DNA of 40,777 nt from an uncultured Gammaproteobacteria bacterium. GTDB taxonomy: Bacteria > Pseudomonadota > Gammaproteobacteria > Arenicellales > JAANXG01. Positions 9,003-30,352 of this stretch are shown in pieces. The stretch spans positions 1 through 40,777 of the forward strand of contig CAMYNX010000003.1 in NCBI GenBank assembly GCA_947259875.1, given 5' to 3'. The position numbers and the translations under genes were made by a program. Numbering within the stretch: position 1 is the first letter of the stretch; each line of letters starts with the position of its first letter. The notes below the pieces were generated by a model that did no database searches, had not been told where the DNA came from, and saw only the letters and a list, made by a program, of their open reading frames with translations.

Positions 9003-9292
9003 CCCGCATATTGCACCGAGGCGCCCCGCGACTATTTATGGTACCCAGTTAAGAACTCCGCAGTGTCACTTCGATGAAATAGCAACATACGAGCCTCCAG
9101 TTTGTTTAGGGAGAATAGTCGCGGGACTATCCCGGCCCTGACTGGGTCTCGCACATCTGCGCTTGGCCTGCACTCAACAGAAAATAGGGGTCGGAGTCAC
9201 AGACTCCGGCCCCTATTTTTCATCGCCCCAAGCGCGGCGCTCGGCCGCACGAGTCCTGCGTCAGTATCCGAGATCCTGGTGAGAAATACGGG
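9003..9292 (-). mobile_element. MITE-like element copy H, flanked by CTAG on both sides
   Basis: The ends are CCCGCATATTGCACCGAGG (from 9003) and, in inverse orientation, CCTGGTGAGAAATACGGG (to 9292). CTAG lies at 8999-9002 and again at 9293-9296, consistent with a 4-bp target duplication. The body matches the reverse complement of copy B (21746-22011), including the nested arms CCCGCGACTATT / AATAGTCGCGGG. The central hairpin is replaced by the P2 palindrome at 9181-9219. It is non-coding, about 290 bp. This is the best-preserved evidence for target choice. It fills the spacer between hemerythrin and the CAP-domain gene. Confidence 0.75.
9181..9219 (+). terminator. P2 palindrome (copy 2), strong terminator-like hairpin
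   Basis: AAAATAGGGG-TCGGAGTC, a 3-nt loop (ACA), then GACTCCGG-CCCCTATTTT gives an 18-bp stem with one wobble pair. Five Ts (9216-9220) end it in the plus direction, and the A-run makes it work on the minus strand too. It lies inside element copy H, 180 bp after the hemerythrin stop, and could also serve the minus-strand CAP gene from the other side. Confidence 0.65.
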
Positions 9293-9377
9293 CTAGGCGA
9301 AGTCAGGGAAAAGCGCAATAGAATCAGGCGAGACGATTTTTTCGGAACGACAACCGGTAGCCTGGGTGTGCCACCGG

Positions 9378-10466
9378 TTACGGGGTTTCGCTCATCACTG
9401 TGAATCGTGCACCCTGTTGGACTTTGAAGCCAGGTCCCAATGCGATCCTGGGGGCATGAAAGGTGACGTCACCGGGCGCGTTGATTTCAAAGCCGGACGC
9501 AGCCGCAATCAGCGAGCACGCCTGGAAAGTTTGCTGATAATCAATGGTCTGTATGGGAAGATCAAGTTGATCGTCGGGCACAGCGCACGGCAGGGTGAGT
9601 GCGATCGTATCGCTCGCCGCACGTACCGTATTGTCAATGTTTCGTAGCTCAACCTCCACCTGCTTCACACCGTTACCGGAACTGAGTTCCCATGATTTAT
9701 TGGGTGAGTAAGATTCCCACAACGACCAAGTGCCGTTCTCATTCTTAAACCGCATGTCCGCAGCCCATCCTGCGCCGTACACATAAAGATCGATACCTTG
9801 CGTATCGGTCTCTGCAGCTTCACGATTGATCACCACTGGGTACACGTCGTTTCGCCGGCCAAAATTCTGGGTCCAATAGTGATAGAAAGGGCCGTCGATA
9901 CCGTCGGCCACGCAGTCGTCGTTAGCATCGATTCGCACGTTAGAGAAATCAGCGGGCTGGTGCGTGTGACCGATCCCGATCTCCCGGTAACTCCCTGACA
10001 GTATATTGTTCCGGTGACCAGAACTGCTCATCCACGCGTTCATCACAAAGTCCGGTGTAGTATAGCCGGCGGCGATGTTTTCAGCCGCGCTGTTCCACAC
10101 GTAACCCGCAGCCGTTATTCGATCAAATGCTGACGTCACCAGATCCAGGTCGCAGTGCGCAGAGAAGTCTCTGCTGGCCATGTTGTCGCTATGTGTGCCC
10201 GCGGAACTATCGAGCAGGACGTTGCGTTTCAGCGGGGCGAGCCCCTGGGCGTCGCGCTCTTGGTTGACCCGCTCGACGACCTGCTGCTCGAAATCGGCTG
10301 TTGTGGGCGCGGTCAGTGTTTGCGCGGTGGGTGCACCCAAGTCATCCGGCTGTGGGGTGATGCCTGCGGGCCCCGGATTCGGGGCCTCGGGTCCCAACTG
10401 GGCAAAACTGACGAGATTCCACATCAGTGTTGCGAGGGCGGTGATTGAGACTGGATAATGGTGCAC
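9378..10466 (-). CDS. Secreted CAP (SCP/PR1-like) domain protein
   Basis: The 362-residue protein has an N-terminal hydrophobic signal-like stretch (ITALATLMWNLVSFA), a Pro-rich linker, then a CAP domain at about residues 55-215: NQERDAQGLAPL, THSDNMASRDFSAHCD, AAENIAAGY, MSSSGHRNNIL and WTQNFG. CAP proteins are extracellular; bacterial functions are mostly unknown. After a middle region of unclear fold (WSLWESYSPNKSWEL), the last 50 residues form a small module ending PRIALGPGFKVQQGARF that recurs in the next protein (10900-12678). The two are on the same strand and may share a surface or sorting signal. No operon link is clear, since about 430 bp including a pseudogene separates them. Confidence 0.85.
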   Translation of the reverse strand: MHHYPVSITALATLMWNLVSFAQLGPEAPNPGPAGITPQPDDLGAPTAQTLTAPTTADFEQQVVERVNQERDAQGLAPLKRNVLLDSSAGTHSDNMASRDFSAHCDLDLVTSAFDRITAAGYVWNSAAENIAAGYTTPDFVMNAWMSSSGHRNNILSGSYREIGIGHTHQPADFSNVRIDANDDCVADGIDGPFYHYWTQNFGRRNDVYPVVINREAAETDTQGIDLYVYGAGWAADMRFKNENGTWSLWESYSPNKSWELSSGNGVKQVEVELRNIDNTVRAASDTIALTLPCAVPDDQLDLPIQTIDYQQTFQACSLIAAASGFEINAPGDVTFHAPRIALGPGFKVQQGARFTVMSETP

Positions 10467-10597
10467 GGTTCGTGCTCAATAATTCGTGGTTACTTATTTA
10501 CAGCATAGACGGGTTAGTGTTTAGAGTGTAGGTGTTACCGATCCTAGGGGACAGGCAAGCTTGGGTTAACGACGGTCACTATCATTCTAATAACCTC

Positions 10598-10895
10598 TTA
10601 TAACCGCAGCTTTGTTTCAAACTCGTTCAGTCGATTGCCCAATTGCTCAATCAGTTTCTGATGTGACGCAATCTCTTTTTTTAGAGTCGATGCCCTGTTG
10701 TTGATCTTTAACCAACTGCGTCGCAACCAAGACAATGCCCGTCGTTACTACCGCCTTGCTGTTGTTCGTCGCCACTAACTACGAGACGTCTGCGGCAATG
10801 AATCCCAAATAGCCTTCATCGGGCTCGATGCTTGTACCTGCACCGAACCGGGGTAAGGCCTTGTTGCTCTGGCATTGCTGGAGTCTTGCGATGCT
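10598..10895 (-). pseudogene. Decayed C-terminus of a tail-fibre / S74 chaperone-type protein
   Basis: On the minus strand the frame gives EPDEGYLGFIAADV, an in-frame TAG (about 10780), then LVATNNSK and VATQLVKDQQQGIDSKK. A one-base shift in an A7 run (about 10679) leads into EIASHQKLIEQLGNRLNEFE and a TAA at 10598-10600. This is the usual end of tail-fibre-domain (intramolecular chaperone) proteins: a GFIAEDVPxLVA strand followed by a QQQ-rich coiled coil. One stop and one frameshift make it non-functional, and only about the last 95 residues remain. The bases between 10467 and 10597 show nothing further. Confidence 0.65.
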
Positions 10896-10899
10896 TTGT

Positions 10900-12678
10900 C
10901 TACGGGACACAAACCGGGCACGGGTTCGCTGAATTGGTTTTGAATACACCGTTCGACTCGACGCTAAATCCAGGCTCGATGGTAATCCGTGGTGAGATGA
11001 TCCCAAGGTTGCCCGTCGCCATAACGCGCGCGGTCCCCTTTACCGTGACCGAGCTCGCGGCCACGCACTGCTGGGCATCGCTGACCACACTGTCGAAGTT
11101 CGCGTCATTCCCCGCACATACGTTACTAGAGAACACCGGGTGGTCGTCCCAATTGTCCTGAATACCGTCCCCATCGGTGTCGGGATCGTTCGGGTCCAAA
11201 TCCGGGTGTTTATTAAATTCGTCCAGATTGGTCAGACCGTCGTTGTCCGGATCGTCGTCCGCATCGGTGGGATCGAGGGGGTCCAGTACTGCGGGGTGGG
11301 CGTTTTCGAATCCATCGGTCATGCCGTCATTGTCGTCGTCATTGTCGTCGGCATCCAGGATGCCATCCCGATCGAAGTCCGCAGCGGTATAGGCAATCTT
11401 GCGCACGCTATTGGTCCATTGAGAAACGTAATAAAGCGCGCCGTCGGGCCCCACGGTCCAGTCGGAACTACCGCCGGACAGTGCGGTGGCAAAATCGTCC
11501 GCCGTCACCCCGCCGGTAATCTGGACCCAGGTGGAAGTTCCGGAATCCCAGCGCCGGGCCCGCAAAAACCCCACATAGTAATCCGAGGCGAAGTACACGC
11601 CCTCGAAGCTCAGCGGAAAACTGACGTCCCCCGAGATATTATTGGGGTAAGGGTTGCCGCGGTAGACAGGGCCGCCCATCACCGACAGGGCGCCCTGGCC
11701 ACTATGGTCGTATTCAAAAATGGGAGGATGGTTGGGTGGCGGCGTAATCCCACAGTTGGGATTGGCGGGGGCGTGCATACCTTCGTAGTACGGCCACGCA
11801 AAGTTGTCTGCGCTGGCGGCACCGCCGTCTTCAGCCGGCGGCGACCCTTCGCTGGCCTCCTCCCGGGTACCAGCCCCGACGTCGCCGACATAGATGCGCC
11901 CGGACGCCGGGTCAATGGAAAAACGAAACGGGTTTCGCAGCCCGTACGCCCAGATCAGGCGTTTGTCCAGGTTGGCGTCTCCGGAAAACGGATTGTTACC
12001 CGGATCCAGAGATACCCGGTCTGAGGCCGCATCGAAAGTCCCGGTCACACCCTCTACATTGATGCGCAGGATCTTGCCCTTGAGCAATGTCAGATCCTGC
12101 GCGTCGCAGCGGTCGGCATCGTCGCCTAGGCTGACGTACAGCTTCCCGTCGGGTCCAAAGCGGAGTGTACCGCCGTTGTGGTTGCTGGCATCGTCCGGAA
12201 TGTCATGCAGCAGTATTACCTTCGTATTGCTGTCGATGGTGAAATTGGCGGACGACGGATCGTTCAGGTCGCCTGCTACGGTGTAACGCGCGATGTGGAT
12301 CTTCGGCGGGGAGGCGTTGGTGTAGAACAGGTAGATGTATGGACGCGAAGGAAATGCCGGGTCAACCGCAATACCCAACAACCCTCGTTCGCCCCCGGTG
12401 TTGACCTCGGGCATCGTCAGGAGTGTGCTCAGCGCCCCGTTCGCCCACAATTTCACCTTTGCATCGTCATCGGCGTTTTGGTTGGTATTGTTGCCTTGCT
12501 GGACAACGAGCAGCCGTCCGTCGGGCAGAAACGCCATGCCCACCGGGCCGTTTAATCCGCTGCCAATTACCACCTGTTCAGTAAATCCGCTGGGAAGGCT
12601 GACCGCAACTGCGGGTGCCGAAAGCGATATTGCGACCGAGACCACGATTCCGCACAGATAAAACACAAAATGCCTCAC
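10900..12678 (-). CDS. Secreted PQQ-type glucose/sorbosone dehydrogenase propeller with TSP3-like calcium repeats
   Basis: The 592-residue protein begins with a signal peptide (FYLCGIVVSVAISLSAPAVA). A GSDH-type six-bladed propeller occupies about residues 30-430: GLNGPVGMAFLPDGRLLV, GERGLLGIAVDPAFP, NHNGGTLRFGPDGKLYVSLG, GKILRINVEG and WAYGLRNPFRFSIDP. Family members oxidise aldoses using PQQ, but many relatives with this layout lack proven activity. Residues about 440-545 are Asp-rich calcium repeats (DRDGILDADDNDDDNDG, DTDGDGIQDNWDD). The last 55 residues carry the PRITIEPGFSVESNGVF module shared with the CAP protein, then CPVCVP. It is extracellular or surface bound. No PQQ biosynthesis genes lie in the window. 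Confidence 0.85.
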   Translation of the reverse strand: MRHFVFYLCGIVVSVAISLSAPAVAVSLPSGFTEQVVIGSGLNGPVGMAFLPDGRLLVVQQGNNTNQNADDDAKVKLWANGALSTLLTMPEVNTGGERGLLGIAVDPAFPSRPYIYLFYTNASPPKIHIARYTVAGDLNDPSSANFTIDSNTKVILLHDIPDDASNHNGGTLRFGPDGKLYVSLGDDADRCDAQDLTLLKGKILRINVEGVTGTFDAASDRVSLDPGNNPFSGDANLDKRLIWAYGLRNPFRFSIDPASGRIYVGDVGAGTREEASEGSPPAEDGGAASADNFAWPYYEGMHAPANPNCGITPPPNHPPIFEYDHSGQGALSVMGGPVYRGNPYPNNISGDVSFPLSFEGVYFASDYYVGFLRARRWDSGTSTWVQITGGVTADDFATALSGGSSDWTVGPDGALYYVSQWTNSVRKIAYTAADFDRDGILDADDNDDDNDGMTDGFENAHPAVLDPLDPTDADDDPDNDGLTNLDEFNKHPDLDPNDPDTDGDGIQDNWDDHPVFSSNVCAGNDANFDSVVSDAQQCVAASSVTVKGTARVMATGNLGIISPRITIEPGFSVESNGVFKTNSANPCPVCVP

Positions 12679-13136
12679 AGGAAGTCATGCCCTCCCATTG
12701 AGAGTGGCCATTTTTCTTCGTGCTGCCTTCCCGCACTACAAACTATATTTTTTACGTTCACGGCGTTCACCAAACAACTCGTTCACTACGGGTCGGACCT
12801 CGTCAACTACAAACAAGTTCACGACCTACGTTTACAAGGAGTCGGACCTCGTCAACTGATTGATTAAATGAAATATGTTATCCGTAGTATCGCGATATCC
12901 ACGATTACAACATCGTTTTTGCGCCCCAAAACGCCGCTATAAGCGGTAAGTGCCACGATCCAGGTTCTGCAGGCATTATCGGAACCGAACCCAGTTAGTG
13001 GTTTCAAGTTGCGGCCCCACTGAACGGCTTGGTTTTTACGATCATTTGACGTATTCTTGACGTTCGCATTCTTTTCAAGGGTGTTGATCAACTAAGACTC
13101 GGATAAGTTAGCTCTCACGATAACAAGGAGGTTGTC
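12679..13136. other. Spacer with a 17-bp direct repeat
   Basis: GTCGGACCTCGTCAACT occurs twice, starting near 12791 and 12841, with related GTTCAC words around it (near 12757, 12767, 12780 and 12815). No gene is convincing. A minus-strand frame (12864-13091, 75 codons) has no recognisable family. The 3' half leads into the PEP-CTERM gene, and no clear promoter was seen. Confidence 0.4.
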
Positions 13137-13805
13137 ATGCAATGTTCCAAGACTTTTCTGTTCTGCTCCGTTCTTCTTATCTCCTGGAATACGCCTGTTT
13201 CGGCCATGCCTATGGTCTTGATTAATGAGGTTGTCTATGACGGATCGGGTTCTGACGCTGATGATGTATTTACGGAATTATTTGGCAGCCCTAACGCCAG
13301 CCTGAACGGTTATTTTTTAACGGGTACGAATGGATCCACGGGTTTAGTTTACCGCTCGATCGATTTAACAAATACTGTTATCCCGTTCGATGGGGTCCTG
13401 GTGTTGGCGACATCGTCCGCATCCGACGCAGTAAAGGCAGCAAGAGATTATGTTGCAAGTGTCGACTGGCAAAACGGACCGGACTCTATCCAGTTACTGG
13501 ACGCCACAGGATCGATCATCGATTCTCTACAATACGGAGATGCCGGTATTTACAATAGCGGTGAGGGCATGCCGGCTTTGGACGTACCCGCCGGTTTTAG
13601 CCTGTCACGGGATACGTTCGCAACAGACACCAATAACAACGCATTAGATTTTGCAAGCACTTTCAGCCCTACACCCGGCACAGGGCCTGCAATACTAAAT
13701 GTTCCAGAACCGTCGAGCTGGTTGTTAATGACCTTTGGGCTCATTAGTTTTCTCGTTACCATAAAATTGCGCGCGCTGCACGCCGCTAAAGAGATGTCCG
13801 GATAG
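13137..13805 (+). CDS. Lamin-tail-like secreted protein with PEP-CTERM sorting signal
   Basis: The 222-residue protein has an N-terminal signal peptide (TFLFCSVLLISWNTPVSA) and a domain beginning MVLINEVVYDGSGSDADDVF that resembles lamin-tail (LTD) domains (INEV start, FVEL-like strand, later DSIQLLDATGSIIDSLQYG). The C-terminal tripartite signal is VPEPSSW, a hydrophobic helix (LLMTFGLISFLVTI) and a basic tail (KLR). PEP-CTERM proteins are processed by an exosortase and usually belong to the exopolysaccharide/biofilm surface. AAGGAGG lies 7 bp before the ATG, a strong ribosome site. No exosortase is in this window. Confidence 0.88.
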   Translation: MQCSKTFLFCSVLLISWNTPVSAMPMVLINEVVYDGSGSDADDVFTELFGSPNASLNGYFLTGTNGSTGLVYRSIDLTNTVIPFDGVLVLATSSASDAVKAARDYVASVDWQNGPDSIQLLDATGSIIDSLQYGDAGIYNSGEGMPALDVPAGFSLSRDTFATDTNNNALDFASTFSPTPGTGPAILNVPEPSSWLLMTFGLISFLVTIKLRALHAAKEMSG

Positions 13806-13837
13806 CAAAGATTCAACACCGCCGGACTTTGGCGAGT

Positions 13838-13859
13838 GGCCCGGATGTCGCACCGGGCC
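13838..13859 (+). terminator. GC-rich hairpin after PEP-CTERM gene
   Basis: GGCCCGG (13838-13844) and CCGGGCC (13853-13859) pair around an 8-nt loop, 33 bp after the stop codon. No T-run follows, so it may only be a stabilising 3' hairpin. Confidence 0.3.
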
Positions 13860-13938
13860 CCGTCGCCAGGGACTGCAGTGGCGTCAAGCAGCTTTACCGT
13901 AGAATGTCACGATTTCCTGGAAAAGACGCTGCGAGGCA

Positions 13939-13958
13939 CCTTGGTGCGATAGCCGAGC
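13939..13958. repeat. Isolated MITE-family end (copy G, fragment)
   Basis: CCTTGGTGCGATAGCCGAGC resembles the right terminus of the element family (CCTTGGTGCAATATGCGGG). No matching left arm could be recognised with certainty between here and 13806, so this is either a relic or chance. Confidence 0.3.
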
Positions 13959-14058
13959 CGGTTCTGCGTTCTTGTCGTGCTCAGCAAGGGGCCGGTGACA
14001 AATACGCGTTATGAGTTTGCTCGGATAAGTTTCGAGGCGACTGAAACCGCGAATTTAT

Positions 14059-14132
14059 TGGCTGGGGGAGAGGGATTCGAACCCCCGCTGGCGGAGTCAG
14101 AGTCCGCAGTCCTACCACTAGACGATCCCCCA
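14059..14132 (-). tRNA. tRNA-Gln (anticodon CUG)
   Basis: On the minus strand the sequence starts TGGGGGATCG, has D-arm GTCTAGTGGTAGGAC, anticodon stem GCGGA/TCCGC with loop CTCTGAC (anticodon CTG, reading CAG), a T-arm with GGTTCGAATCC, and an acceptor strand ending in an encoded CCA. The U1-A72 end pair is typical of glutamine tRNAs. It is a single gene between the PEP-CTERM gene and rpsI, with no attached integrase. Confidence 0.95.
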
Positions 14133-14383
14133 GGATCAGACACAAGATACAAGCGAAAAGGGACCAGGTAAAGGCACTTCAGACTTGTTTCGGACTTGCG
14201 ATCAGCCGATTGATCCGGCCCACCCCGCTGCGGGTCCCATGGCGATTTGCTGTCATCGCCCAAGCGCGCTGCGTGTAGAACCTCGCAACCCCGGCTGCAT
14301 TCGACGGCAACGAGGGAGCGTACTGGATATTATCTGATCGCGAAACGCGAGGGATGCGGGGCGTATGATGCTGTGCCCAGAAA

Positions 14384-14418
14384 AAACGGGGTCAGAGTCT
14401 GTGACTCTGACCCCGTTT
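14384..14418 (-). terminator. Intrinsic terminator of rplM-rpsI, formed by a P2 palindrome (copy 3)
   Basis: On the minus strand a perfect 16-bp stem (AAACGGGGTCAGAGTC paired with GACTCTGACCCCGTTT, 3-nt loop) runs into six Ts (14386-14381), 32 bp after the rpsI stop. The same palindrome type occurs at 6878-6914 and 9181-9219 inside mobile elements, so a mobile repeat appears to serve as terminator of a ribosomal protein operon. Confidence 0.75.
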
Positions 14419-14449
14419 CTGATCCGGGATCCTCGGTGCAATATACGGC
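14384..14449 (-). mobile_element. MITE-like element copy C (one clear end) abutting rpsI
   Basis: The terminus GATCCTCGGTGCAATATACGGC (14428-14449, in plus orientation) matches the family end and is followed by CTAG at 14450-14453, which contains the rpsI stop codon. Inward is the P2 palindrome. The other end is not recognisable, though CATCGCCCAAGCGCGCTGCG near 14257 resembles a block of copy H, so the element may extend left to about 14230. Confidence 0.5.
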
Positions 14450-14848
14450 CTAGCGTTTACTGTATTGCGGCCGTTTCCTAGCTTTGTGGAGACCAACTTT
14501 CTTGCGTTCGACTTCTCTCGCGTCACGGGTGACGAAGCCAGCCTTGCGGAGCTTGCGGCGCAGGGTCTCATCATAGCCGAGCAAAGCACGGGTGATTCCG
14601 TGGCGAATAGCGCCGGCTTGCCCACTGTTACCGCCACCATCGACGTTTACTTCAATGTCGAATGTGCTCTCCATGTCCGCAAGTACCAGCGGTTGCCGCA
14701 CGACCATGCGCGACGTTTCCCGTCCAAAATATTCGTCGAGGGGATGCTGGTTTACCATAATTCGTCCGCTGCCATGCTTGAGACGCACCCGGGCGGTAGA
14801 CGACTTGCGCCGACCTGTCCCTGCATAATATTGTTCGGTGTTCGCCAC
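14450..14848 (-). CDS. rpsI: 30S ribosomal protein uS9
   Basis: The 132-residue protein is full length: [10 protein letters not shown]-like start ([15 protein letters not shown]), the central [20 protein letters not shown], and the universal basic tail ending KRPQYSKR, which reaches toward the P-site tRNA. The start is GTG, supported by GAGG 8 bp upstream. It follows rplM by 17 bp in the usual rplM-rpsI operon. Its TAG stop falls in the CTAG that borders a MITE-like element, and the operon terminator lies within that element. Confidence 0.98.
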
Positions 14849-14865
14849 GTAATACCTCGTCGCAA

Positions 14866-15294: not shown

Positions 15295-15328
15295 GCCAGT
15301 TTATGTGCCCGGTGGAGGGCGGAGGCGC

Positions 15329-15357
15329 ATACTACTAAACAGGGATATAAGTTACAA
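15329..15357 (-). promoter_or_regulatory. Sigma70-type promoter of rplM-rpsI
   Basis: On the minus strand a -35 TTGTAA (15357-15352) and -10 TAGTAT (15334-15329) are separated by exactly 17 bp. The predicted start is about 30 bp before the rplM ATG. It lies between the small-RNA terminator and rplM, so rplM need not depend on transcription from further upstream. Confidence 0.6.
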
Positions 15358-15411
15358 GACACTATCACGACGCTATGTCGCGCAGAACGTAATCATCAAG
15401 CAGGGGTATCC

Positions 15412-15543: not shown

Positions 15544-15549
15544 ATAATA

Positions 15550-18840: not shown

Positions 18841-19935
18841 TCACAAATCCCGATACAGCCGTCCAGGGTTAAATATTCGCTGGGGATCAAATGCATTTTT
18901 CAAATTACGATGCAGGTTGAACAGTCCCGAAGGCAGCGAGTGAAACACCTCGCCTGATCGATCGCCGCCGCGGAACAGGGTCGCGTGACCGCCGGCGGCC
19001 TCGACCTGTTTGCGAATCACATCTGTTGGCGCATCGGTCTTCAACCAACGTTGCCCTCCTCCCCATTCGATCAACCACTCACCGTCGAGGGGCAGCGGCG
19101 GCGTGGCCTGCGGCACCGAGATACGCCACTGCGATTGATCATCAGCAAAAAACGAATGGCGGTGCTCTTTGACGCCGTGCCAAAACGCTGCGCCCTCATC
19201 GATCAATTCACCATCCAGTTTAATGATCGCTGCATCCACACCCTTGGCGGAACCGGACACGCGAACATCAAGCGTACCGTCGTGATAACACGTGGCTGAG
19301 ATCGGGATCGGCTGTCCGGCCCATTCGTTCATCTGCCCAATCGCTTGCGCCGCGGGCATTGAGAATCGAACCGTGGCCTCGCGGGCCGGGATGGGCAGCA
19401 CCTTCACCGATACCTCGACAATCACCCCTAGGGTACCCATGGCCCCAACCGTCAATCGGGATATGTCGTAACCGGCGACGTTCTTCATCACCTGTCCACC
19501 GAATCGCAGCAACTCGCCGTGACCGTTGATGATCCGGGCGCCCAACACAAAATCCCGCGCCGACCCGGCGTAGGGTCGCCGGGGCCCGGAAAACCCGCAA
19601 GCAATCGCGCCACCCAGGGTCGCACCATCGCCGAAATGTGGCGGCTCAAATCCCAACATCTGACCCTGATCGGCCAGGTCTGACTCGAGGTCCACAAGTA
19701 ATGTCCCGGCCCGCGCGGTAACGACCAATTCCGATGGTTCATAGCTGACGACCCCGTTGTGGCCGCGTAAATCCAACGGTTGTCCTTCACTCGCGCGACC
19801 ATAAAACGCCTTGGTGTCGCCGCCCTGCAAACGCAATGGTGTACTCTCCGCGGCCGCCTGCTTGACCACCAGACAGAGCTGCTTGTCGATGTTGTTGTCA
19901 GAATTCAACGCGGGCTGCACCCTGCTCGCCTGCAT
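18841..19935 (-). CDS. glcE: Glycolate oxidase FAD-binding subunit
   Basis: The 364-residue FAD-binding PCMH-type protein has PLRLQGGDTKAFYG near 35-48, YEPSELVVTARAGT, the FAD loop GDGATLGGAIACGFSGPRRP, and the end FDPQRIFNPGRLYRDL. It is the second flavin subunit of glycolate oxidase. The predicted ATG at 19935 lies inside the left terminal repeat of MITE-like copy A, so MQASR derives from mobile DNA. GTG (codon 6, 19920) and TTG (codon 10, 19908) lie near the element boundary and are the alternatives. No good Shine-Dalgarno precedes the ATG. It is separated from glcD by that element. Confidence 0.93.
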   Translation of the reverse strand: MQASRVQPALNSDNNIDKQLCLVVKQAAAESTPLRLQGGDTKAFYGRASEGQPLDLRGHNGVVSYEPSELVVTARAGTLLVDLESDLADQGQMLGFEPPHFGDGATLGGAIACGFSGPRRPYAGSARDFVLGARIINGHGELLRFGGQVMKNVAGYDISRLTVGAMGTLGVIVEVSVKVLPIPAREATVRFSMPAAQAIGQMNEWAGQPIPISATCYHDGTLDVRVSGSAKGVDAAIIKLDGELIDEGAAFWHGVKEHRHSFFADDQSQWRISVPQATPPLPLDGEWLIEWGGGQRWLKTDAPTDVIRKQVEAAGGHATLFRGGDRSGEVFHSLPSGLFNLHRNLKNAFDPQRIFNPGRLYRDL

Positions 19936-20195
19936 GTTGCACCAAGGATTCCGGAAGCTGGCGAAGAGACCTGTCCTGAGCGCAGTCGAAGGATCGAGCG
20001 ACTGAACGCCGCGTTGGAGCTCAACTCATAGCGAGCTATGGGTTGAGCGAAGCGCAAGTGCAGGCGTTCGAGATCGAGCCAGGGCCGGGATAGGCGATCG
20101 CCGCGGTACAGAGTGTCACTTTCGCAATTTATCGAATTACCTAAATCAATCATTTTGATAACTCTGAATTTCGCCGCCTTGGTGCAATATGCAGG
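19929..20195 (+). mobile_element. MITE-like element copy A between glcD and glcE
   Basis: The left end CCTGCATGTTGCACCAAGG and right end CCTTGGTGCAATATGCAGG are inverted repeats. The right flank is CTAG (20196-20199), which contains the glcD stop codon; the left flank is CTCG. The interior follows the family pattern: GGATTCCGG, a GCCGCGTTGGAGC block, the central hairpin 20021-20046, CAGGCGTTCGAGA, then GGGCCGGGATAG. It shares its right arm type with copies E and F. It is non-coding, about 267 bp, and splits an operon that is normally tightly packed. Confidence 0.75.
20021..20046. repeat. Central covarying hairpin of MITE copy A
   Basis: TCAACTCATAGC pairs with GCTATGGGTTGA over 12 bp, with one U-G wobble. 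Equivalent hairpins are at 21817-21838 (B, GACCCATA/TATGGGTC), 22112-22129 (E, GCATAGC/GCTATGC) and 30168-30189 (F, AGTCATAGC/GCTATGGCT). Flanking pairs differ between copies but stay paired. Confidence 0.65.
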
Positions 20196-21683
20196 CTAGA
20201 ACCGTTCCAGGTCTGGAAATTTCAACTCACCTTTGTGTACGTGCATGGCGCCGAATTCCGCACAGCGGCTCAAGGTGGGAACCGCCTTACCCGGGTTGAG
20301 TAGATTATTGGGATCAAACGCCGCTTTCAACGCATGAAATTGGGTCAGCTCTGATTTATCGAACTGCACACACATCTGGTTGATCTTTTCCACCCCGACA
20401 CCATGCTCGCCGGTGATCGTGCCACCGACTTCGACGCTCAACTCCAGGATCTTACCGCCCAGTTCTTCGGTGCGCTCAAGCTCACCGGGCTGGTTGCCGT
20501 CGTAAAGTATCAACGGATGCAGATTGCCGTCGCCGGCATGAAACACGTTGGCAATTCGCAGACCGTACTCCTGTCCCATTTCCGCGATGCGCGTCAATAC
20601 GTAACCGATTTTTTTTCTGGGGATGGTGCCGTCAATACAATAGTAATCGGGTGACAACCGGCCCGCCGCCGGAAACGCCGCCTTGCGTCCGGACCAGAAC
20701 AGTTGCCGTTCCTGTTCATCTTTGGCAATGCGCATATCGGTGCAACCACTTTGTTCCAGCACCTTCTTGACCCGCGCGATATCATCATCGACCTCTTCGG
20801 GCGTACCGTCCAGCTCACAAAAAAGTATCGCCGCGGCATCGATGTCATAACCGGCGTGTACAAAATCTTCCGTTGCCCGGGTCGCCAGGTTGTCCATCAT
20901 CTCCAAGCCGCCAGGAATGATCCCCGTCGCAATAATGTTGCCAACGGCGTTACCCGCCTGTTCGATATCGTCAAAAGACGCCATGATAAGCTTGGCCGAC
21001 ACCGGTTTTGGCAACAGCCGGACGGTGATCTCCACGATAATTCCCAGCATGCCCTCAGAGCCGGTCATCAACGCCAGCAAGTCATAACCCGGGGCGTCCA
21101 GGCTGTCCGCCCCGATGGTGACCAAGTCGCCTTCCACGGTGACCACTTGCAGCTTCAGGATGTTGTGAACCGTCAACCCGTACTTCAGGCAATGCAGGCC
21201 CCCGGCATTCTCGGCCACATTGCCGCCGATGCTACAGGCGATTTGTGATGAGGGGTCCGGGGCGTAATAAAACCCCGACCCGGATACCGCCTCGGAAATG
21301 GCCAGATTGCGCACCCCCGGTTGCACCCGGGCGGTGCGATTGAGCACATCGATGTCGAGAATCCGGTTGAACTTGGCGAGGCTCAACAACACGCCGTTTT
21401 CCAGCGGTAGTGCGCCCCCCGACAGGCCGGTCCCCGCGCCACGCGCGACCACCGGGATCCGCTGGCTCGCGCAGTAACGCATCACCGCCTGCACTTGCTC
21501 AACGGTATCCGGCAACGCGACTACCAGGGGTAGCCTGCGGTAGGCGCTAAGGCCATCGCACTCGTACGGCCGAAGCTGCTCGGTTTGATCGAGCACCGCG
21601 TCATCCGACAGCCATTGCCGCAATGCGCGCCCAAGCGCACGTCGTCCGTTATCAGCCTGCGCTTGCTCCGCGGTCCGGGCCAT
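20196..21683 (-). CDS. glcD: Glycolate oxidase FAD-linked subunit
   Basis: From the ATG at 21683 the protein has 495 residues, close to the E. coli GlcD length. The PCMH-type FAD domain includes YECDGLSAYRRLPLVVALP, VVARGAGTGLSGGALP, APDPSSQIACSIGGNVAENA and MTGSEGMLGIIVEI. The C-terminal FAD-oxidase domain includes FHAGDGNLHPLILYD, GEHGVGVEKI and FDPNNLLNPGK. It oxidises glycolate to glyoxylate with GlcE and GlcF. The open frame runs 56 codons further upstream into a mobile element; GAGGTGG just before the ATG at 21683 decides the start. Element copy B lies about 60 bp upstream and copy A begins at its stop codon. Confidence 0.95.
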   Translation of the reverse strand: MARTAEQAQADNGRRALGRALRQWLSDDAVLDQTEQLRPYECDGLSAYRRLPLVVALPDTVEQVQAVMRYCASQRIPVVARGAGTGLSGGALPLENGVLLSLAKFNRILDIDVLNRTARVQPGVRNLAISEAVSGSGFYYAPDPSSQIACSIGGNVAENAGGLHCLKYGLTVHNILKLQVVTVEGDLVTIGADSLDAPGYDLLALMTGSEGMLGIIVEITVRLLPKPVSAKLIMASFDDIEQAGNAVGNIIATGIIPGGLEMMDNLATRATEDFVHAGYDIDAAAILFCELDGTPEEVDDDIARVKKVLEQSGCTDMRIAKDEQERQLFWSGRKAAFPAAGRLSPDYYCIDGTIPRKKIGYVLTRIAEMGQEYGLRIANVFHAGDGNLHPLILYDGNQPGELERTEELGGKILELSVEVGGTITGEHGVGVEKINQMCVQFDKSELTQFHALKAAFDPNNLLNPGKAVPTLSRCAEFGAMHVHKGELKFPDLERF

Positions 21684-21745
21684 GGTTCCACCTCTCATGA
21701 ATCGGGGCCGCCAACATACCATGATCCTTAACTGGAAGGCACTAG

Positions 21746-22011
21746 CTCGCATATTGCACCAAGGATCCCGGCTGCTGGCGAAGGACTCGTGCAGCTGAGC
21801 GCGGCGCCTGGAGCAAGACCCATAGCGGGTTATGGGTCGAGTGAAAGCCAAGCGAAGGTGTGCGAGAACCAGCCAGTGCCGGGATAGCCCCGCGACTATT
21901 CTCCCTAAATAACCTGGAGACCCTTATGTTGCTATTTTATCTAAGGGACACTGCGAAGTTCTTAGCTGGGCATCATGAATAGTCGCGGGGCGCCTTGGTG
22001 CAATATGCGGG
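21746..22011 (+). mobile_element. MITE-like element copy B upstream of glcD
   Basis: The left end CTCGCATATTGCACCAAGG and right end CCTTGGTGCAATATGCGGG are inverted repeats; flanks are CTAG (21742-21745) and CTGA. The interior has a central hairpin (21817-21838) and a nested 103-bp block bounded by perfect 14-bp inverted repeats CCCCGCGACTATTC (21888-21901) and GAATAGTCGCGGGG (21977-21990). Copy H has the same nested block; copies A, E and F have a different right arm. It is non-coding. It lies between glcD and its likely regulatory region, so it may separate the gene from, or supply, its promoter. Confidence 0.78.
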
Positions 22012-22038
22012 CTGACCCTTGCAACCCGCCGCGGCTAG

Positions 22039-22282
22039 CTCGTATATTGCACCAAGGATCCCGGATGATGGCGAAGGGACCGGGCGGCTGGACGCCGCGC
22101 TGGAACGAAATGCATAGCCGCAGCTATGCGTTGAGAGCAGCGCAACTCCAGGCGTTCGAGACCAAGCCAGCGCCGGGATAGGCGCATACTCGGGGACAAA
22201 GTGTCACACCGGGTATTGATCGAATTAATTATGCCCAAGAAATGTCAGCTCTATTTCTCGCTGCCTTGGTGCAATATACGAG
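22039..22282 (+). mobile_element. MITE-like element copy E upstream of the peroxiredoxin gene
   Basis: The left end CTCGTATATTGCACCAAGG and right end CCTTGGTGCAATATACGAG are perfect inverted repeats over 19 bp. The left flank is CTAG (22035-22038), the right flank CTGC. Interior order: GATCCCGG, GGACGCCGCGCTGGAAC, hairpin GCATAGC-CGCA-GCTATGC, CTCCAGGCGTTCGAGACC, CGCCGGGATAG, then the A/E/F-type right arm with AAAGTGTCAC. It ends 45 bp before the peroxiredoxin ATG. Only about 23 bp separates it from copy B, giving a tandem pair. Confidence 0.78.
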
Positions 22283-22327
22283 CTGCACTTAGGCTGGCTG
22301 GATCAAACCGCGTTGAGGAATTCTCAT

Positions 22328-24951: not shown

Positions 24952-25078
24952 CAATCTACTTCCACCTTTCTCAGGCACGCAAGGATATCAAAGAAAGAAA
25001 ACGTCGGATGATCAACGTATTCCATGAATAGGGACACTAGTTTGAGTCTCGAGTCCTTCGGTTTTGTTACTTGCTTTT

Positions 25079-25954
25079 TTACCCGCCCAGGAATAGCCGT
25101 CCGACCTCCGGGTCGGCCAATAACAGGTCTCCCTTGTCCGCCATCGCGATCTCGCCGGAAACCATTACATAACCCACATCGGAAAACTCGAGTCCTTTCT
25201 TGGCGTTTTGCTCAACCATGATGATGGTCTTTCCCTCGTTGTGTTGCAGGTCGTCGAGGATCTCGAACACCATGTTGATGAACCGTGGCTCCAAACCAAT
25301 AGACGGCTCGTCCACCAGCAGTATTTCAGGATTCATGACCAGGGCACGGGAGATCTCCAACAGGCGCCGCTCGCCTCCCGACAATACCCGCGCCAGTTGG
25401 TGGCGGCGTTCCGCCAGGTTTGGATATTTATCCAAGATCTTATCTGCAGCCTCCCGCGCGTGCGCCGGATCCTCCATCAGGTATCCGCCCATCCACAGAT
25501 TTTCCTCCACGGTCATGTCTGCAAACACGGAGTTGTCCTGGAGGATATAGGCGATCTTCGCTTGCTTGAGTTTCTGGTTGGGGCCAAGCTTGGTGATCTC
25601 CTGACCGTTGACCCGGATCGACCCGCCCATGATGTTGGTAAACCCATAGATCGAATGCAGCACCGTGGATTTGCCCGCGCCGTTGGGTCCGATCAAACAC
25701 AATGACTGGCCTTTGCTGACCTGCAGATGGACATCGAACAAGATCTGCATCTTGCCGTAACCGGCATTGAGACTCTCAATGGTGAGAAACGGGGCGTTAT
25801 CCGCGAGCGCGGCAAACTTGTCCACCGTCGGACGGTCCTGGGAGAGCGCGCCGGCGTCGCGCGCGACCTCGTCCACCGATAACACGGTGTCCACCGTCCC
25901 CGCGCCGTGACCATGGATCCTGGTGTCGGTGTTGTCGCGATCGTTCTCGGCCAT
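25079..25954 (-). CDS. livF: Branched-chain amino acid ABC transporter, ATPase LivF
   Basis: The 291-residue protein has an ABC ATPase core from about residue 55: Walker A GPNGAGKST, signature LSGGERRLLEIS, Walker B ILLVDEPSIGLEP and the switch region IIMVEQNAKKGLEF. An Asp/His-rich N-terminal extension of about 50 residues (DRDNTDTRIHGHGAGTVDT) is unusual for LivF, which is normally near 235 residues. Its ATG overlaps the livG stop (TGATG). It is the last gene of livKHMGF. It energises uptake of branched-chain or related amino acids. Confidence 0.93.
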   Translation of the reverse strand: MAENDRDNTDTRIHGHGAGTVDTVLSVDEVARDAGALSQDRPTVDKFAALADNAPFLTIESLNAGYGKMQILFDVHLQVSKGQSLCLIGPNGAGKSTVLHSIYGFTNIMGGSIRVNGQEITKLGPNQKLKQAKIAYILQDNSVFADMTVEENLWMGGYLMEDPAHAREAADKILDKYPNLAERRHQLARVLSGGERRLLEISRALVMNPEILLVDEPSIGLEPRFINMVFEILDDLQHNEGKTIIMVEQNAKKGLEFSDVGYVMVSGEIAMADKGDLLLADPEVGRLFLGG

Positions 25955-26697
25955 CAGTGTGCACCCAGATAGGCGTCAATCACGCGCCGATCGTTCTGGA
26001 TCTCGTCGGGGGTGCCGTCCGCCAACAATTCGCCGTGGGCGAGACAGTAGATGTGCTGCGCGAGGTTCATGATAACGCGCATATTGTGCTCGATCACGAA
26101 CAGGGTGATACCGAATTCAGCATTGGCGCGCTTCAGCCGGTCGATAAGACCATTAATTAGCGTTGGATTGATCCCTGCAGTCGGTTCGTCGAGCAATAAC
26201 GTGATCGGCTCATTCATTAATGCCATCGCAAACTCCAGCAACTTCTGCTGGCCAAATGACAAGTCTTCGGCACGCAGCTGACGTTTCGCATATAGGCCAA
26301 CAAACTCCAGTAAACTCTCTGCCCGTTCGGTGATTTCCGGTGGAAACTTTCGCAGCATCGTGGCGAAACTGTCGTCTACGTGCGGCAGGCTGATCTGCAT
26401 GTTCTGCACGCAGTTCATCTTGCCGAAGATGCGGGTCTGTTGATACGTACGAAGCAGACCCAACCGCGCGATTTGCGGCGTCCTCAGACGAGACAGCTCG
26501 GTACCTTGAAATCGAACCGCCCCGCTATCGATCGGATGATGGCCAACGATGGAATTAAACAACGTGGTCTTGCCGGAGCCGTTCGGTCCGATCAAGCCAA
26601 TAATGGAACCCTTCGGCACTGACAAGCTGATGCTGTTATTCGCGATCACCCCGCCGAAGGTCTTGGTCACGTTTTCAACTTCCAGGATCGCGCTCAT
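25954..26697 (-). CDS. livG: Branched-chain amino acid ABC transporter, ATPase LivG
   Basis: The 247-residue protein has Walker A GPNGSGKTTLF, signature LSFGQQKLLEFAMAL, Walker B LLLDEPTAGINP and VIEHNMRVIMNLAQHIYCL, the LivG pattern. The length is normal. Its ATG overlaps the livM stop (ATGA), indicating translational coupling. Confidence 0.94.
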   Translation of the reverse strand: MSAILEVENVTKTFGGVIANNSISLSVPKGSIIGLIGPNGSGKTTLFNSIVGHHPIDSGAVRFQGTELSRLRTPQIARLGLLRTYQQTRIFGKMNCVQNMQISLPHVDDSFATMLRKFPPEITERAESLLEFVGLYAKRQLRAEDLSFGQQKLLEFAMALMNEPITLLLDEPTAGINPTLINGLIDRLKRANAEFGITLFVIEHNMRVIMNLAQHIYCLAHGELLADGTPDEIQNDRRVIDAYLGAH

Positions 26698-27758
26698 CGT
26701 TCTCCGTCCAAGGACACCTGCACCCGGCGGGCGCCCTCATCGACAACCTCGCCAAACCGCTGCGGCCAGCGTTCGCGTAACCAGCCGACGATCCCTAGCG
26801 GGAAGAACACCACTACGACAACGATCATAAGACCCAGCGCGACGCGCTGCCAGCCAAACAGATAAGTCCAGAAGATTTCCTGGGTGATGTGAAAAACCGT
26901 GGCGCCGATGACCGGCCCCCACAGCGTGCCCTTTCCGCCGAGGATCGCCATCAGCACCATCCACACCCCGAAGGTGGGCCCGGCGAACGCCACATCCGTC
27001 GGGTCGATAAAGATCACCAGATTGCCGAAGGCGCCCCCGGTCAAAGCCAGAAAAAACCCCGACACGCACCAGGCGACGGTTTTGTAACGGGTGGCATGCA
27101 AGCCCAAGGCATCTGCCTTGTCCTCGTCATCGCGGATTGCGTTGATTGCCAATCCAAATTGGCCGGCGTATAAACGCTTGAGCACCGCAAACGCGATCAC
27201 CGCCAACACCAAGAACAAATAATAGAAAAACGGGCCGCGCTCGCCGAGGGCGTCGGGTAATAACGGTGTCACCAGGCCCGAACCAGCGCCAATGTAATCC
27301 CAACCGCTGGCCAGTTCGCCGGCGGCGATCCCCAGACCCAGCGTGCAGATCGCGAAATAATGCCCGCGTAGCCCGAGAATACCGGAACCCAACACCGCGG
27401 CGATCACCACTGCCAATAACGCGCCGCTACCCATGCCCAGACCTAACCCGGTCAAATACTCCACTGGGGTCAACACCGCCTGGTCGCCGCCGGCGACGTT
27501 GGCGTATTCTTCGACCGTAAAGTACAGGTCCCGCTGCACTACCGCGGTGGCATACATGCCGACACCGAAAAAGACGATATTGCCGAACGAGTTATAGCCC
27601 ATCTGCCCGCCCAACACGTCCCAGGTCATGGCAAACAGAATCATGACCCATAGAAACGCGAATTGGATGAGATATGGTTGCAACACGGGGACCAGAGGAA
27701 TAAGGAACGCCGCGATCACCAACGCAACATACAGCGCCATTTTGCCGGGACCGTTCAT
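26694..27758 (-). CDS. livM: Branched-chain amino acid ABC transporter permease LivM
   Basis: The 354-residue protein has about nine hydrophobic segments. The LivM signatures are WDVLGGQMGYNSFGN-like (residues about 45-60), the cytoplasmic loop FGLAINAIRDDEDKADALGLH (21 residues; key residues AIRDDEDKA), and GGKGTLWGPVIGA near the C-terminus. It overlaps livG and livH by 4 bp each. The inner membrane permease partners LivH. Confidence 0.94.
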   Translation of the reverse strand: MNGPGKMALYVALVIAAFLIPLVPVLQPYLIQFAFLWVMILFAMTWDVLGGQMGYNSFGNIVFFGVGMYATAVVQRDLYFTVEEYANVAGGDQAVLTPVEYLTGLGLGMGSGALLAVVIAAVLGSGILGLRGHYFAICTLGLGIAAGELASGWDYIGAGSGLVTPLLPDALGERGPFFYYLFLVLAVIAFAVLKRLYAGQFGLAINAIRDDEDKADALGLHATRYKTVAWCVSGFFLALTGGAFGNLVIFIDPTDVAFAGPTFGVWMVLMAILGGKGTLWGPVIGATVFHITQEIFWTYLFGWQRVALGLMIVVVVVFFPLGIVGWLRERWPQRFGEVVDEGARRVQVSLDGER

Positions 27759-28654
27759 TTCAGGACCTGGCGTTGCCGCTTGAGAAACATGTTACGTACC
27801 AGCAGGATGACCACCAACAGCCCAAACACGAACCCAATCTGGAACTCGGCGCCAAGCAGGAAGGCGGCGAACTGCTCCGCCGCGCCCAGTCCCAAGGCCG
27901 CGGCGACGACCGCGGCGATGTTACCCAACCCCGCTACCACCACGATCATAAACGAGCGAATGGTATAGGCGAGACCGATGAAGGGTTGGATCACCCAGGT
28001 CATCACCACCAGCGCCCCGGCGGCGCCGCAGAGGGCGGCGTTCAACGCGAATGTCATCGCGTAGACCCGATCGGTGTTGATGCCCATCAGGCGCGCCGCC
28101 CGGGCATTCTGCGCGGTAGCCCGAATCGCCTGCCCCATGCGCGATTTTTTGAAAAACAACACCAAGGCCACGCCGACGACAACCACGACGGCAAAGGCCA
28201 CGAGCTTGATCTGACTCACAGTCACTTGACTATCGAACAGGAATATCTGTCCCAGGCCGGACTCGGCGGACTGGATGTCGGCGCCGAAGATCTGGTCCAT
28301 CAATTGCTGCAACAGGATGGAAATGCCAAACGTCGCCAGTATCGAGATAAATAGATCGCGATCGACGACCCGGAATATCACCGCCCGGTAGATGGCCCAA
28401 CCGACGATGAATAACACCAGCGCCGCCACCGGGACACCGAACAACGGATGAATCCCGGCGTTGTAAAGCGTCAGAGTGACATAGCCACCGAGAATGACGT
28501 AGTCGCCCTGGGAGATGTTGATGATGTTCATCACCCCCCATAGCAACGCCATGCCGTAGGCGGCTAAGGCGAAGATTGACCCCACCAACAAGCCGTCGAT
28601 CAACAACTGCACCGAAAAGATCGGTGCTTGCAGCAGGATCTCAAGGTTGCCCAT
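27755..28654 (-). CDS. livH: Branched-chain amino acid ABC transporter permease LivH
   Basis: The 299-residue protein has eight or so helices: LIDGLLVGSIFALAAYGMAL and INISQGDYVILGGYV at the N-terminus, and the coupling loop GQAIRATAQNARAARLMGIN in the middle. This is a typical LivH. It follows livK by 56 bp and overlaps livM by 4 bp. The substrate range depends on the binding protein. Confidence 0.94.
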   Translation of the reverse strand: MGNLEILLQAPIFSVQLLIDGLLVGSIFALAAYGMALLWGVMNIINISQGDYVILGGYVTLTLYNAGIHPLFGVPVAALVLFIVGWAIYRAVIFRVVDRDLFISILATFGISILLQQLMDQIFGADIQSAESGLGQIFLFDSQVTVSQIKLVAFAVVVVVGVALVLFFKKSRMGQAIRATAQNARAARLMGINTDRVYAMTFALNAALCGAAGALVVMTWVIQPFIGLAYTIRSFMIVVVAGLGNIAAVVAAALGLGAAEQFAAFLLGAEFQIGFVFGLLVVILLVRNMFLKRQRQVLK

Positions 28655-28710
28655 TACGAATCGCCCGCCCCGGCAACGCCAAGGGCGGACTCCTATCTAG
28701 CACCTGTAAA

Positions 28711-29952
28711 TTACCGTTCGCTCCACTTGGGACGCGGATGAATCAGCTTGTCCGACGCCCACTTGGTCGGCGCGACCACCTTGTATTGGCCACCCTGGAT
28801 CTGACGCAGCACCATCGGCTTGGCAATGTTCTTGCCGGTCTCATCGAACTTGATGTTGCCGTAGAAGGTCTGCATCTCGGTTGCCGACAGCGCATCGCGC
28901 AGCTTGCCGGTATCGAAGGAGTTGGCCCGCTGCAGGGCATCGACCCACACCAATACCGAGGCGGTGGATTCGGCGGCCTGGTACGGTGGCACGTAGCCGT
29001 ATTCCTTCTCGAACAGCTTGGCGTAATCGCTGGCCGAGCCAAAGTACTCATCCTTGTAGGTCATGGTCTCGGCCCACTGGGTAGCGCACAATGTGTACTC
29101 AGCGCCAGGGCCGAACTTACCGACCACGTCCGCCGCCTCACAGTGGGTGATGGCAAACATCGGCACATCGACCTTTTGCTCCATCATCTGGCGCACCGCG
29201 GTGGCGGCGCCTTTGGAGTGGCCGGAGACGACCAAGATATCCGGTTTCAATGCCCTGATCTTGGTCAGCGTGACCGTCATGTCGTTCAGCTCTTTGGGCA
29301 GCTTGTCGTCGATCACCACGTTCATGCTGTGGGTCTGCGCGTCGTCCAACACGCCGGCGCGGATATCCTGAGAGAACGGGTCGTTCTCCATCGCCAGCGC
29401 TAACTTGAGTTCGGCCGGGTCTTTGCCCGCCGCCAACGCCTCTTGGGCGGCCAGATTGATGGCCTCGGCCAGATACTGCTCCGACGTCGACAGCACCGCA
29501 AACAGATATTTGTAGCCCTTGTTGAAGAGCGACCGGGATGCCCCATTGCCCTCGACCATCGGAATCTTGTACTTCTCGGTTACCGGTGCCATCGCCTTGG
29601 TCAACCCCGAGCTGTACGGGCCGAGCATGAACTGCACGCCGTCCTGCTTGATTAGGCGCTCGACCAGCTGGGCGCCGCGGGCGGGGGTGGACTCGTCGTC
29701 GTAGTAAATGACCTTGAGCTTGTAGCTCTTGCCGCCCACTTTGATGCCACCCATTTCGTTGACTTTCTTGACCGCCAGCTCATAGCCGTTCTTGGTGTGC
29801 TTGCCGTTGGTTTTATACTTCCCTGTAAACGACAGGGCGGCACCAAGAATAATGGTATCGCCGTCCACCTTTGCTTGCGCGGCACCGGCCAATGACACGG
29901 CGAGGGTCGCGGCGGAAAGGGCGGCGAAGACGGGTTTGAGATATTGAAACAT
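28711..29952 (-). CDS. livK: Branched-chain amino acid-type ABC transporter substrate-binding protein
   Basis: The 413-residue protein has a clear signal peptide (FAALSAATLAVSLAGAAQA, cleavage near residue 27) and a type I periplasmic binding fold: TIILGAALSFTGKYK, the VQFMLGPYSSGLTKAM and KYKIPMVEGNGASRSLF segments, and AAESTASVLVWVDAL. It delivers the ligand to LivHMGF; the residues do not let me tell leucine-type from other amides. AGGAGG lies just before the ATG. MITE-like copy F lies about 120 bp upstream of the ATG. Confidence 0.92.
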   Translation of the reverse strand: MFQYLKPVFAALSAATLAVSLAGAAQAKVDGDTIILGAALSFTGKYKTNGKHTKNGYELAVKKVNEMGGIKVGGKSYKLKVIYYDDESTPARGAQLVERLIKQDGVQFMLGPYSSGLTKAMAPVTEKYKIPMVEGNGASRSLFNKGYKYLFAVLSTSEQYLAEAINLAAQEALAAGKDPAELKLALAMENDPFSQDIRAGVLDDAQTHSMNVVIDDKLPKELNDMTVTLTKIRALKPDILVVSGHSKGAATAVRQMMEQKVDVPMFAITHCEAADVVGKFGPGAEYTLCATQWAETMTYKDEYFGSASDYAKLFEKEYGYVPPYQAAESTASVLVWVDALQRANSFDTGKLRDALSATEMQTFYGNIKFDETGKNIAKPMVLRQIQGGQYKVVAPTKWASDKLIHPRPKWSER

Positions 29953-30074
29953 GATTTCCTCCTTAGTCCTCTGGTTTTAATCTCTCTCTGTAACCCCCTC
30001 CTTAGCTTAGAGCAATCCTGGTCGCTACTTTATCGCCGACCGCCCGGTAAGCCAAGCGGTTTCACCACTCCTAG

Positions 30075-30352
30075 CCTGCCTATTGCCGCAGTATCCGGGA
30101 AGCTGGCGCGGGACCGGGGCGGCTGGATCCCCCTGCTGTGCGGGGACAAGCGCCGCACTGGAGCGAAAGTCATAGCCGTAGCTATGGCTAGAGTGAAGTC
30201 CAAGTTCAGGCGTACCTGGACCAGTCAGAACGCGGATAGGAAACCGGCCGTGTACAAAGTGTACCCAAGACAAATGTGCTTGATTCGATGTTTATACATT
30301 GTTTATCAATCAGTTAACTCAAGGCTGGTGGCCGACGGACGCAATATGCGGG
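30075..30352 (+). mobile_element. MITE-like element copy F upstream of livK
   Basis: CTAG at 30071-30074 precedes a diverged left end (CCTGCCTATTGCCGCAGTATCCGG). The right end is GACGCAATATGCGGG with flank TTAA. Interior order: GAAGCTGGCG, GACCGGGGCGGCTGGA, an inserted P1 palindrome (30129-30150), CGCCGCACTGGAG, hairpin AGTCATAGC-CGTA-GCTATGGCT, then GGATAG and a right arm with ACAAAGTGTACCC. It is non-coding and the oldest-looking full copy. It lies between the divergent livK and acyltransferase genes. Confidence 0.65.

Follow-up and report, generated by a model that had tools for sequence, protein, structure and literature searches.

Bacterial repeats that are short, mobile and devoid of a transposase gene are known, and the available parts of two sources describe Correia, RUP, ERIC, Chunjie and QMITE2 as such repeats, with up to hundreds of copies and with transcripts forming stable stem-loops (PMC2229807, PMC10969869). 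In the same parts, claims on the fold of other bacterial miniature inverted-repeat transposable elements (MITEs) rest on predicted folds. The CIR repeats of Caulobacter and Brucella, which consist of two long arms and a linker, are conserved as an RNA model and resemble MITEs only partly, and the available text mentions no YTAR duplication for them (PMC2229807). The piggyBac superfamily of animals uses a TTAA target, rarely TTAG or CTAA, and mostly CCC-starting 5′ motifs, and IS1380 serves as the piggyBac outgroup in the excerpted text of PMC10813416; the kinship of the two is indicated only by this outgroup use. In the parts of the literature covered by our searches, no MITE driven by IS1380 was found. 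The window analysed here is a whole stretch of 40,777 nucleotides from contig CAMYNX010000003.1 of an uncultured Gammaproteobacteria bacterium (genome G000; 4,585,544 bases in 390 contigs, 91% complete). It contains copies of a dispersed family which is very probably a MITE family of about 230–360 bp, moved in trans by IS1380 DDE transposases, with the 4-bp target YTAR duplicated and with a left and a right rod inside the ends. The MITE kind is already known; what sets this family apart is its conserved fold, a right module that can be exchanged or inverted, and the swap of termini. It differs from Correia, RUP, ERIC, Chunjie and QMITE2 in its YTAR target and IS1380 link, in its interchangeable right modules and in the compensatory changes that were measured. 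It is a very large bacterial MITE family tied to IS1380, for which both target duplication and empty sites were found.

The terminus gave a first view of the size of the family. The 16-bp core GCATATTGCACCAAGG matched G000 at 117 forward and 125 reverse positions with up to two mismatches, against 2 + 2 for the reversed control, and these 242 matches against four supported the claim of an initial annotation, made from the window alone, that a non-autonomous MITE-like family of large genomic copy number is present and that further copies would be found in the genome. One search of G000 for copies returned at least 55 matches, with 40 of 266 candidates scored. Further counts were made in 61 stretches of G000 including the window (832,455 bases), and because nearly all of them were picked for terminus matches, their densities are not genome averages. 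Full copies measured 230–357 bp, which is too short for a transposase gene. Terminal inverted repeats, short size, target duplication and dispersed high copy number, the marks by which MITEs are recognised, were all found.

The flanks point to insertion at a defined target. In the stretches of G000, where termini were counted with up to four mismatches (three for the second class described below), YTAR preceded 106 of 182 termini, as CTAG (55), TTAG (23), CTAA (15) or TTAA (13), and its background frequency was 0.58% of positions. The enrichment at the flanks expected by the initial annotation was therefore seen, and CTAG is indeed the commonest form, although the true target is the wider YTAR. 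Among 85 end pairs drawn from G000 and relatives, YTAR was present on both sides in 32 and on one side only in 42; the two flanks were identical in 23 of the 32, as compared with 11.0 on shuffling (p 5e-5).

In the window, the 19-bp terminus had eight matches with up to three mismatches, whereas 0.01 was expected by shuffling, and an element profile recovered all seven places listed by the initial annotation. This profile draws on 15 copies from the same genome, and the window copies starting at 19925, 21742 and 22035 in profile coordinates match it by construction because they are among its seeds. The profile spans were 9000–9296, 19925–20198, 21742–22014, 22035–22284 and 30071–30355 for full-length copies, and 14422–14453 (left end alone) and 6767–6875 (worn remnant) for partial ones. 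The copies within their termini are as follows.

6769–6875, plus strand: worn left-half remnant, aligned flank CCAG
9003–9292, minus strand: full-length copy, right module type B, each terminus class once, CTAG at 8999–9002 and 9293–9296
14422–14449, minus strand: left-end remnant (terminus and ATCCCGG) abutting rpsI, flank CTAG
19929–20195, plus strand: full-length copy between glcD and glcE, right module type A, flanks CTCG/CTAG
21746–22011, plus strand: full-length copy upstream of glcD, right module type B, flanks CTAG/CTGA
22039–22282, plus strand: full-length copy, right module type A, flanks CTAG/CTGC, same insertion in G004
30075–30352, plus strand: full-length copy, right module type C, flanks CTAG/TTAA

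The window thus holds five full-length copies, one end fragment (14449) and one worn left half (6769–6875). All seven places proposed earlier are real, where the partial one at 14449 is an end fragment only and the one given as 6761–6975 is a remnant whose terminus starts eight bases later, at 6769, and which has no recognisable right end. CTAG at one end or more holds for six copies; the 6769 remnant has CCAG at the aligned flank and CTAG eight bases further out. CTAG at both ends of the 9003–9292 copy was confirmed, and the shared terminus has its eight matches, except that this copy carries two unlike ends, TATTGCACCGAGG and TATTTCTCACCAGG.

The comparison of syntenic blocks from five members of the genus showed empty sites at three window copies: glcD/glcE, 21746 and 30075. 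At glcD/glcE, the element and both flanks of G000 correspond to exactly 4 bases in four relatives (G001, G002, G003 and G005). These bases read CTAA in G002 and G005; glcD ends there with TGA in G001 and G003, whose 4-base site is not YTAR. The site is filled in G004, which has the altered CTCG flank in common with G000. The insertion is therefore present in G000 and G004 and not in G002, though G002 is nearer to G000 (pairwise identities over 10 genes of 92.1% for G002 and 90.2% for G004). Precise excision in G002 is not claimed, as sorting or recombination explains the pattern equally well, the empty sites of G002 and G005 both being CTAA. The 21746 site is occupied in G002 and consists of exactly 4 bases in G004 (GGCA-CTAG-CCCTTGC), and at 30075 G002 is empty with a single TTAG. 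At 9003, G004 lacks the element, but the site sequence has diverged. G002 carries a further copy some 100 bp away from its empty 30075 site (L246, near 17050), with CCAG on both sides, and the target may for this reason be slightly wider than YTAR. The empty sites also bear on the view that the repeat is a fixed structural or regulatory one of the REP/BIME kind and not a transposon. Its strong predicted folds, its depletion within open reading frames (ORFs) and the nested hairpin modules that also stand alone would agree with such a repeat, whereas terminal inverted repeats, a 4-bp duplication and empty sites do not; the last refute it for the family as a whole, and we regard it as extremely improbable.

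In the search for a transposase likely to move the MITEs, PF01609 and PF13701 were run against 13 genomes of the bacterial family, and NF033539 against 109 of the order. Relatives contain complete IS1380 elements of 1.6–1.8 kb, and three transposases were assigned to IS1380 by NCBIfam (E 2e-121, 1e-120 and 1e-72; 405, 403 and 245 bits, cut-off 180). When 32 transposase loci were scanned for the end motif and eight for inverted repeats, ends of the element kind were found around the gene only at L090, L104 and L109, all of them IS1380. Exact YTAR duplications flanked the elements at five of the 12 IS1380 loci checked for ends (L254 TTAG, L256 CTAG, L257 TTAG, L279 CTAG and L281 TTAA), where L279 is a second copy of the L257 element. 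The flank was TAAA at L262, the duplication was inexact at L255, and no convincing YTAR-flanked ends were seen at L253, L258, L259, L260 and L280; L115, the same element as L253, is flanked by CTAG/CTTG. The IS1380 elements share with the MITEs inverted ends starting with CCC or CCT, the closest matching at 14–15 of 16 positions and none being the same along the full MITE end: the left ends of L254, L255 and L257 match the TTGCACC class at 14/16, and the right end of L115 gives the best match, 15/16, to the TTTCTCACC class. They differ in that the MITE has no transposase and that no likeness past the ends was visible by eye over 30-base IS ends. PiggyBac, which is eukaryotic, is likened here by descriptions of its target and motifs.

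An IS5- or IS1182-type transposase could be the mover instead of IS1380. Some IS5 elements use a YTAR target, G000 has five PF01609 matches, and the two of these that were named are best assigned to IS1182, one of them as a fragment below the cut-off. Against this, among the loci scanned every one with element-type ends around its gene (the three named above) belongs to IS1380, and an IS1182-type fragment at L089 sits within an element copy, so that we hold this alternative to be improbable. The L089 fragment (positions 1000–2284, at the end of contig C4 of G000) is IS1182-like and the element copy around it is an apparent one at the contig end. Because complete IS1380 elements in relatives share similar ends and YTAR duplications with the family, an IS1380-type transposase is the likely mover, and the link is well supported at the level of sequence. 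The family, not recognised as an insertion sequence derivative at first, can thus be tied to IS1380 through elements of related genomes, and, of the autonomous transposase with the same ends that had been called for, the closest candidates there have ends alike at 14–15 of 16 positions, no IS1380 gene having been found in the own genome. We infer that IS1380 proteins act in trans on the MITE ends and that the partner of G000 may have been lost or may lie on unbinned contigs. The transposase would recognise CCCGCATATTGCACCAAGG-type or CCCGCATTTCTCACCAGG-type ends, and the element would be inserted into a 4-bp YTAR site, which would be duplicated.

Two ends of different kinds are found on the MITE family. 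In the stretches of G000, the TTGCACC class accounts for 162 of 182 termini and the TTTCTCACC class for the other 20; the 9003–9292 copy has one end of each. In G001, TTTCTCACC-type left ends stand on the same interior in nine of 14 fetched copies (L226–L239). Several of these are identical over the first ~96 bases and are cut by contig ends, and this suggests a recent spread.

The interior between these ends is made of two predicted rods. ATCCCGG/CCGGGAT closes the left rod, and the right rod is of type A, B or C. In the alignment of 60 full copies, a left block ATCCCGG...CCGGGAT (or a variant of it) is followed by a right block A, B or C and by the right terminus, and a few copies are internally rearranged. 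The rows are 60 of the 71 full-length copies below 340 bp; one row left out was an opposite-strand duplicate and the rest were long or oddly rearranged. The left rod is represented in the window by the following feature.

22058–22179, plus strand: left rod of the 22039 copy, ATCCCGG...CCGGGAT around a long covarying hairpin

The predicted RNA fold of the 22039 copy interior has −85.7 kcal/mol (z −3.8), and that of the 21746 copy interior −109.6 (z −5.5) as compared with −94.4 (z −4.4) for its complement. The left rod was aligned from 30 of 32 rods of 105–122 bases, two with a central deletion being dropped and copies with extra hairpin modules being left aside. In this alignment, 88.4% of cells were paired, as against at most 38.1% when partners were slid, and double-change cells numbered 71 as against 20.9 on shuffling, a value reached in 0 of 500 shuffles. 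RNAalifold gave 41 pairs, 12 of them with compensatory change. The type B right rod was treated likewise in 36 copies picked by length (at least 130 bases): 92.8% of cells were paired, with at most 54.3% when slid, and double-change cells were 40 as compared with 14.0. Compensatory changes thus maintain the pairing across copies in the left rod and in the right rod of type B, and these changes let it be asked directly whether the fold of a MITE is selected as RNA.

The arms might instead be kept alike at the DNA level, by template switching or quasi-palindrome correction in replication, a process by which the stretch between the arms would be inverted as well. The type B module has features of this kind. 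Its arm variants differ between copies and mostly match within a copy, as in GCGACTATTC, GCGTCTATTC and GCCCCTATTC, with GCCCTTATTC, GCCTCTATTC and AGCTACTATTC among the further variants; the arms of the 21746 copy are given below.

21887–21901, plus strand: left arm of the type B right module, 21746 copy, GCCCCGCGACTATTC
21977–21991, plus strand: right arm of the type B right module, 21746 copy, GAATAGTCGCGGGGC

The 75-base core between the arms lies, by best score, forward in 23 of the 36 copies and reversed in 13; two of the reversed calls (L056 and L178) are within the range of shuffled sequences, and L065:7041–7174 is 85% identical to the reference when reversed and not otherwise. A DNA-level process of this kind treats both strands alike, yet in the left rod G-U cells outnumber A-C cells by 98 to 12 (15 to 7 by position), and by 33 to 12 when three G-U-dominated pairs are removed. 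The excess is 115 to 57 when five stems of broader sets are summed, and at columns 26–100 and 27–99 G-U is the commonest state of two adjacent pairs. Since G-U exceeds A-C, the fold fits the left-to-right strand better than the complement, and the left half apparently has a strand-specific, RNA-like fold; a putative role would most likely be at the RNA level, on that strand. We take DNA-level correction of the arms as a serious possibility that nevertheless falls short of an even chance. A DNA transposon with a structured-RNA cargo, in which selection keeps a strand-specific two-rod fold in hundreds of copies and in several species, is put forward tentatively, as an idea that is rather unlikely to hold. 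Were it true, the ends would have switched between two IS1380 specificities, with exchange or inversion of the right rod as a whole module, and the family would amount to a mobile non-coding RNA that depends on a borrowed transposase and comes to lie near gene ends by landing on stop codons.

Three window copies abut genes exactly at the stop codon. The genes encode a hemerythrin, ribosomal protein S9 (rpsI) and an FAD oxidase; identities are by Pfam domains, and the label glcD is our own assignment.

9000–9002, plus strand: stop codon of the hemerythrin gene (8610–9002), inside the CTAG beside the 9003–9292 copy
14450–14452, minus strand: stop codon of rpsI (14450–14848), inside the CTAG beside the left-end remnant
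20196–20198, minus strand: stop codon of glcD, inside the CTAG beside the 19929–20195 copy

Since the TAG stop lies within the CTAG target, the gene remains intact after the insertion. In the fetched G000 stretches, with genes taken as uncurated ORFs picked by length (at least 150 aa), YTAR sites at stop codons were occupied in 19 of 178 cases and those 1–120 bp downstream in 23 of 599 (odds ratio 3.0, p 0.001); the odds ratio against general intergenic YTAR sites was 2.4 to 3.2, varying with the ORF cut-off. A copy landing on a stop codon would restore the stop, as YTAR contains TAG and TAA, and would therefore be tolerated and accumulate, which suggests how many copies can be borne. Selection against harmful insertions is enough for this bias, and special targeting need not be assumed. 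A preference for the right end at stop codons, suggested by inspection, is not claimed, as the counts were not significant (13/73 left and 23/76 right ends, p 0.087). Four points go beyond what was initially annotated: the bias towards stop codons, the two terminus kinds, the conservation of the fold and the invertible right module.

Orientation was scored for 115 copies in stretches of G000, G002, G003 and G005, of which 108 have an ORF on both sides. Among these, 37 are antisense to both ORFs and 20 sense to both (p 0.03), and the rest lie between converging (30) or diverging (21) ORFs; for the 71 full-length copies the corresponding numbers are 27, 12, 18 and 14.

Several observations weigh against an IS1380-moved MITE family with conserved rods and tolerated landings at stop codons. 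The IS1380 ends are near and not identical to the TTGCACCAAGG class (14/16), and the 15/16 match to the other class concerns one end only of L115. G000 gave no PF13701 or NF033539 match in its 91% complete assembly of 390 contigs, and no IS1380 gene was found in G002 and G007 either, despite their many terminus matches. YTAR is present on both sides in only 32 of the 85 end pairs, and many copies are therefore old. For the rods, pairs with double change are unexceptional on shuffling (12 vs 10.1 in the left rod, 67/500 shuffles; 5 vs 4.2 in type B), as is the number of pair types in both, and related copies make the cell counts non-independent. Rfam has no match to the element, the window yielding tRNA only. 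The excess at stop codons is not significant against sites 1–30 bp downstream (11/168, p 0.19). The mild excess of antisense-to-both over sense-to-both copies gives no support to the idea that the folded strand arises by simple read-through transcription. A separate Rfam search of 19900–22320 gave two chance-level matches, both outside element copies.

The distribution of the family was surveyed by terminus matches in 60 genomes including G000. Within the genus the signal was strong, with 28 in G001, 293 in G002, 11 in G003, 114 in G004 and 115 in G005. It was likewise strong in some further genomes of the bacterial family (G007 146, G011 48, G012 20, G008 19) and weak or absent in G006 (6), G009 (2) and G010 (1). 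Left ends with the interior were matched 35 + 32 times in G007 and twice in G006, and the left-rod fold model found copies in five of 12 G007/G006 loci, one of them also on the opposite strand and far weaker. Outside the family G017 stands out with 33 matches, the other 46 genomes having at most seven; no left end with interior was matched there (0 matches), so G017 is not counted as a carrier, and its matches possibly belong to a different element with similar ends. G017, of another family, has IS1380 genes, one with internal stop codons. An exact 36-mer was carried by three metagenome-assembled genomes of uncultured Gammaproteobacteria, in 5 stretches in total. Carriage by phage was rejected, the exact terminus having no match in IMG/VR.

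Whole hairpins also come and go in the family. Orthologous copies differ in this way: the central hairpin of the glcD/glcE copy in G000 is replaced by a GGGGTCAGAATT palindrome in G004, and the G002 ortholog of the 21746 copy has an extra hairpin. Hairpins of the element were also found outside it, in 6/59, 4/18 (palindromes, counted on both strands) and 3/21 matches. The motifs TCCTGCGCG..CGCAGG and CCCCTGCTGTG..GGGGACAAG, which seem to be small independent dispersed palindromes, occur at 4538–4640 of the window outside any copy. A further palindrome lies beyond the rpsI-side remnant.

About 14380–14414: GGGGTCAGAGTC palindrome, after the rpsI-side left-end remnant

Palindromes of the GGGGTCAGAGTC type with T-rich flanks stand here (14380–14418) and at 9187–9221, and the palindrome following rpsI resembles a transcription terminator. 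A RAYT (Y1) origin of this palindrome is unsupported, since neither it nor the other motifs sought were seen at the 12 Y1 loci fetched (of 18 matches). The hemerythrin genes at 6207–6614 and 8610–9002 are 71–75% alike over two stretches, and each is followed by an element copy or remnant.

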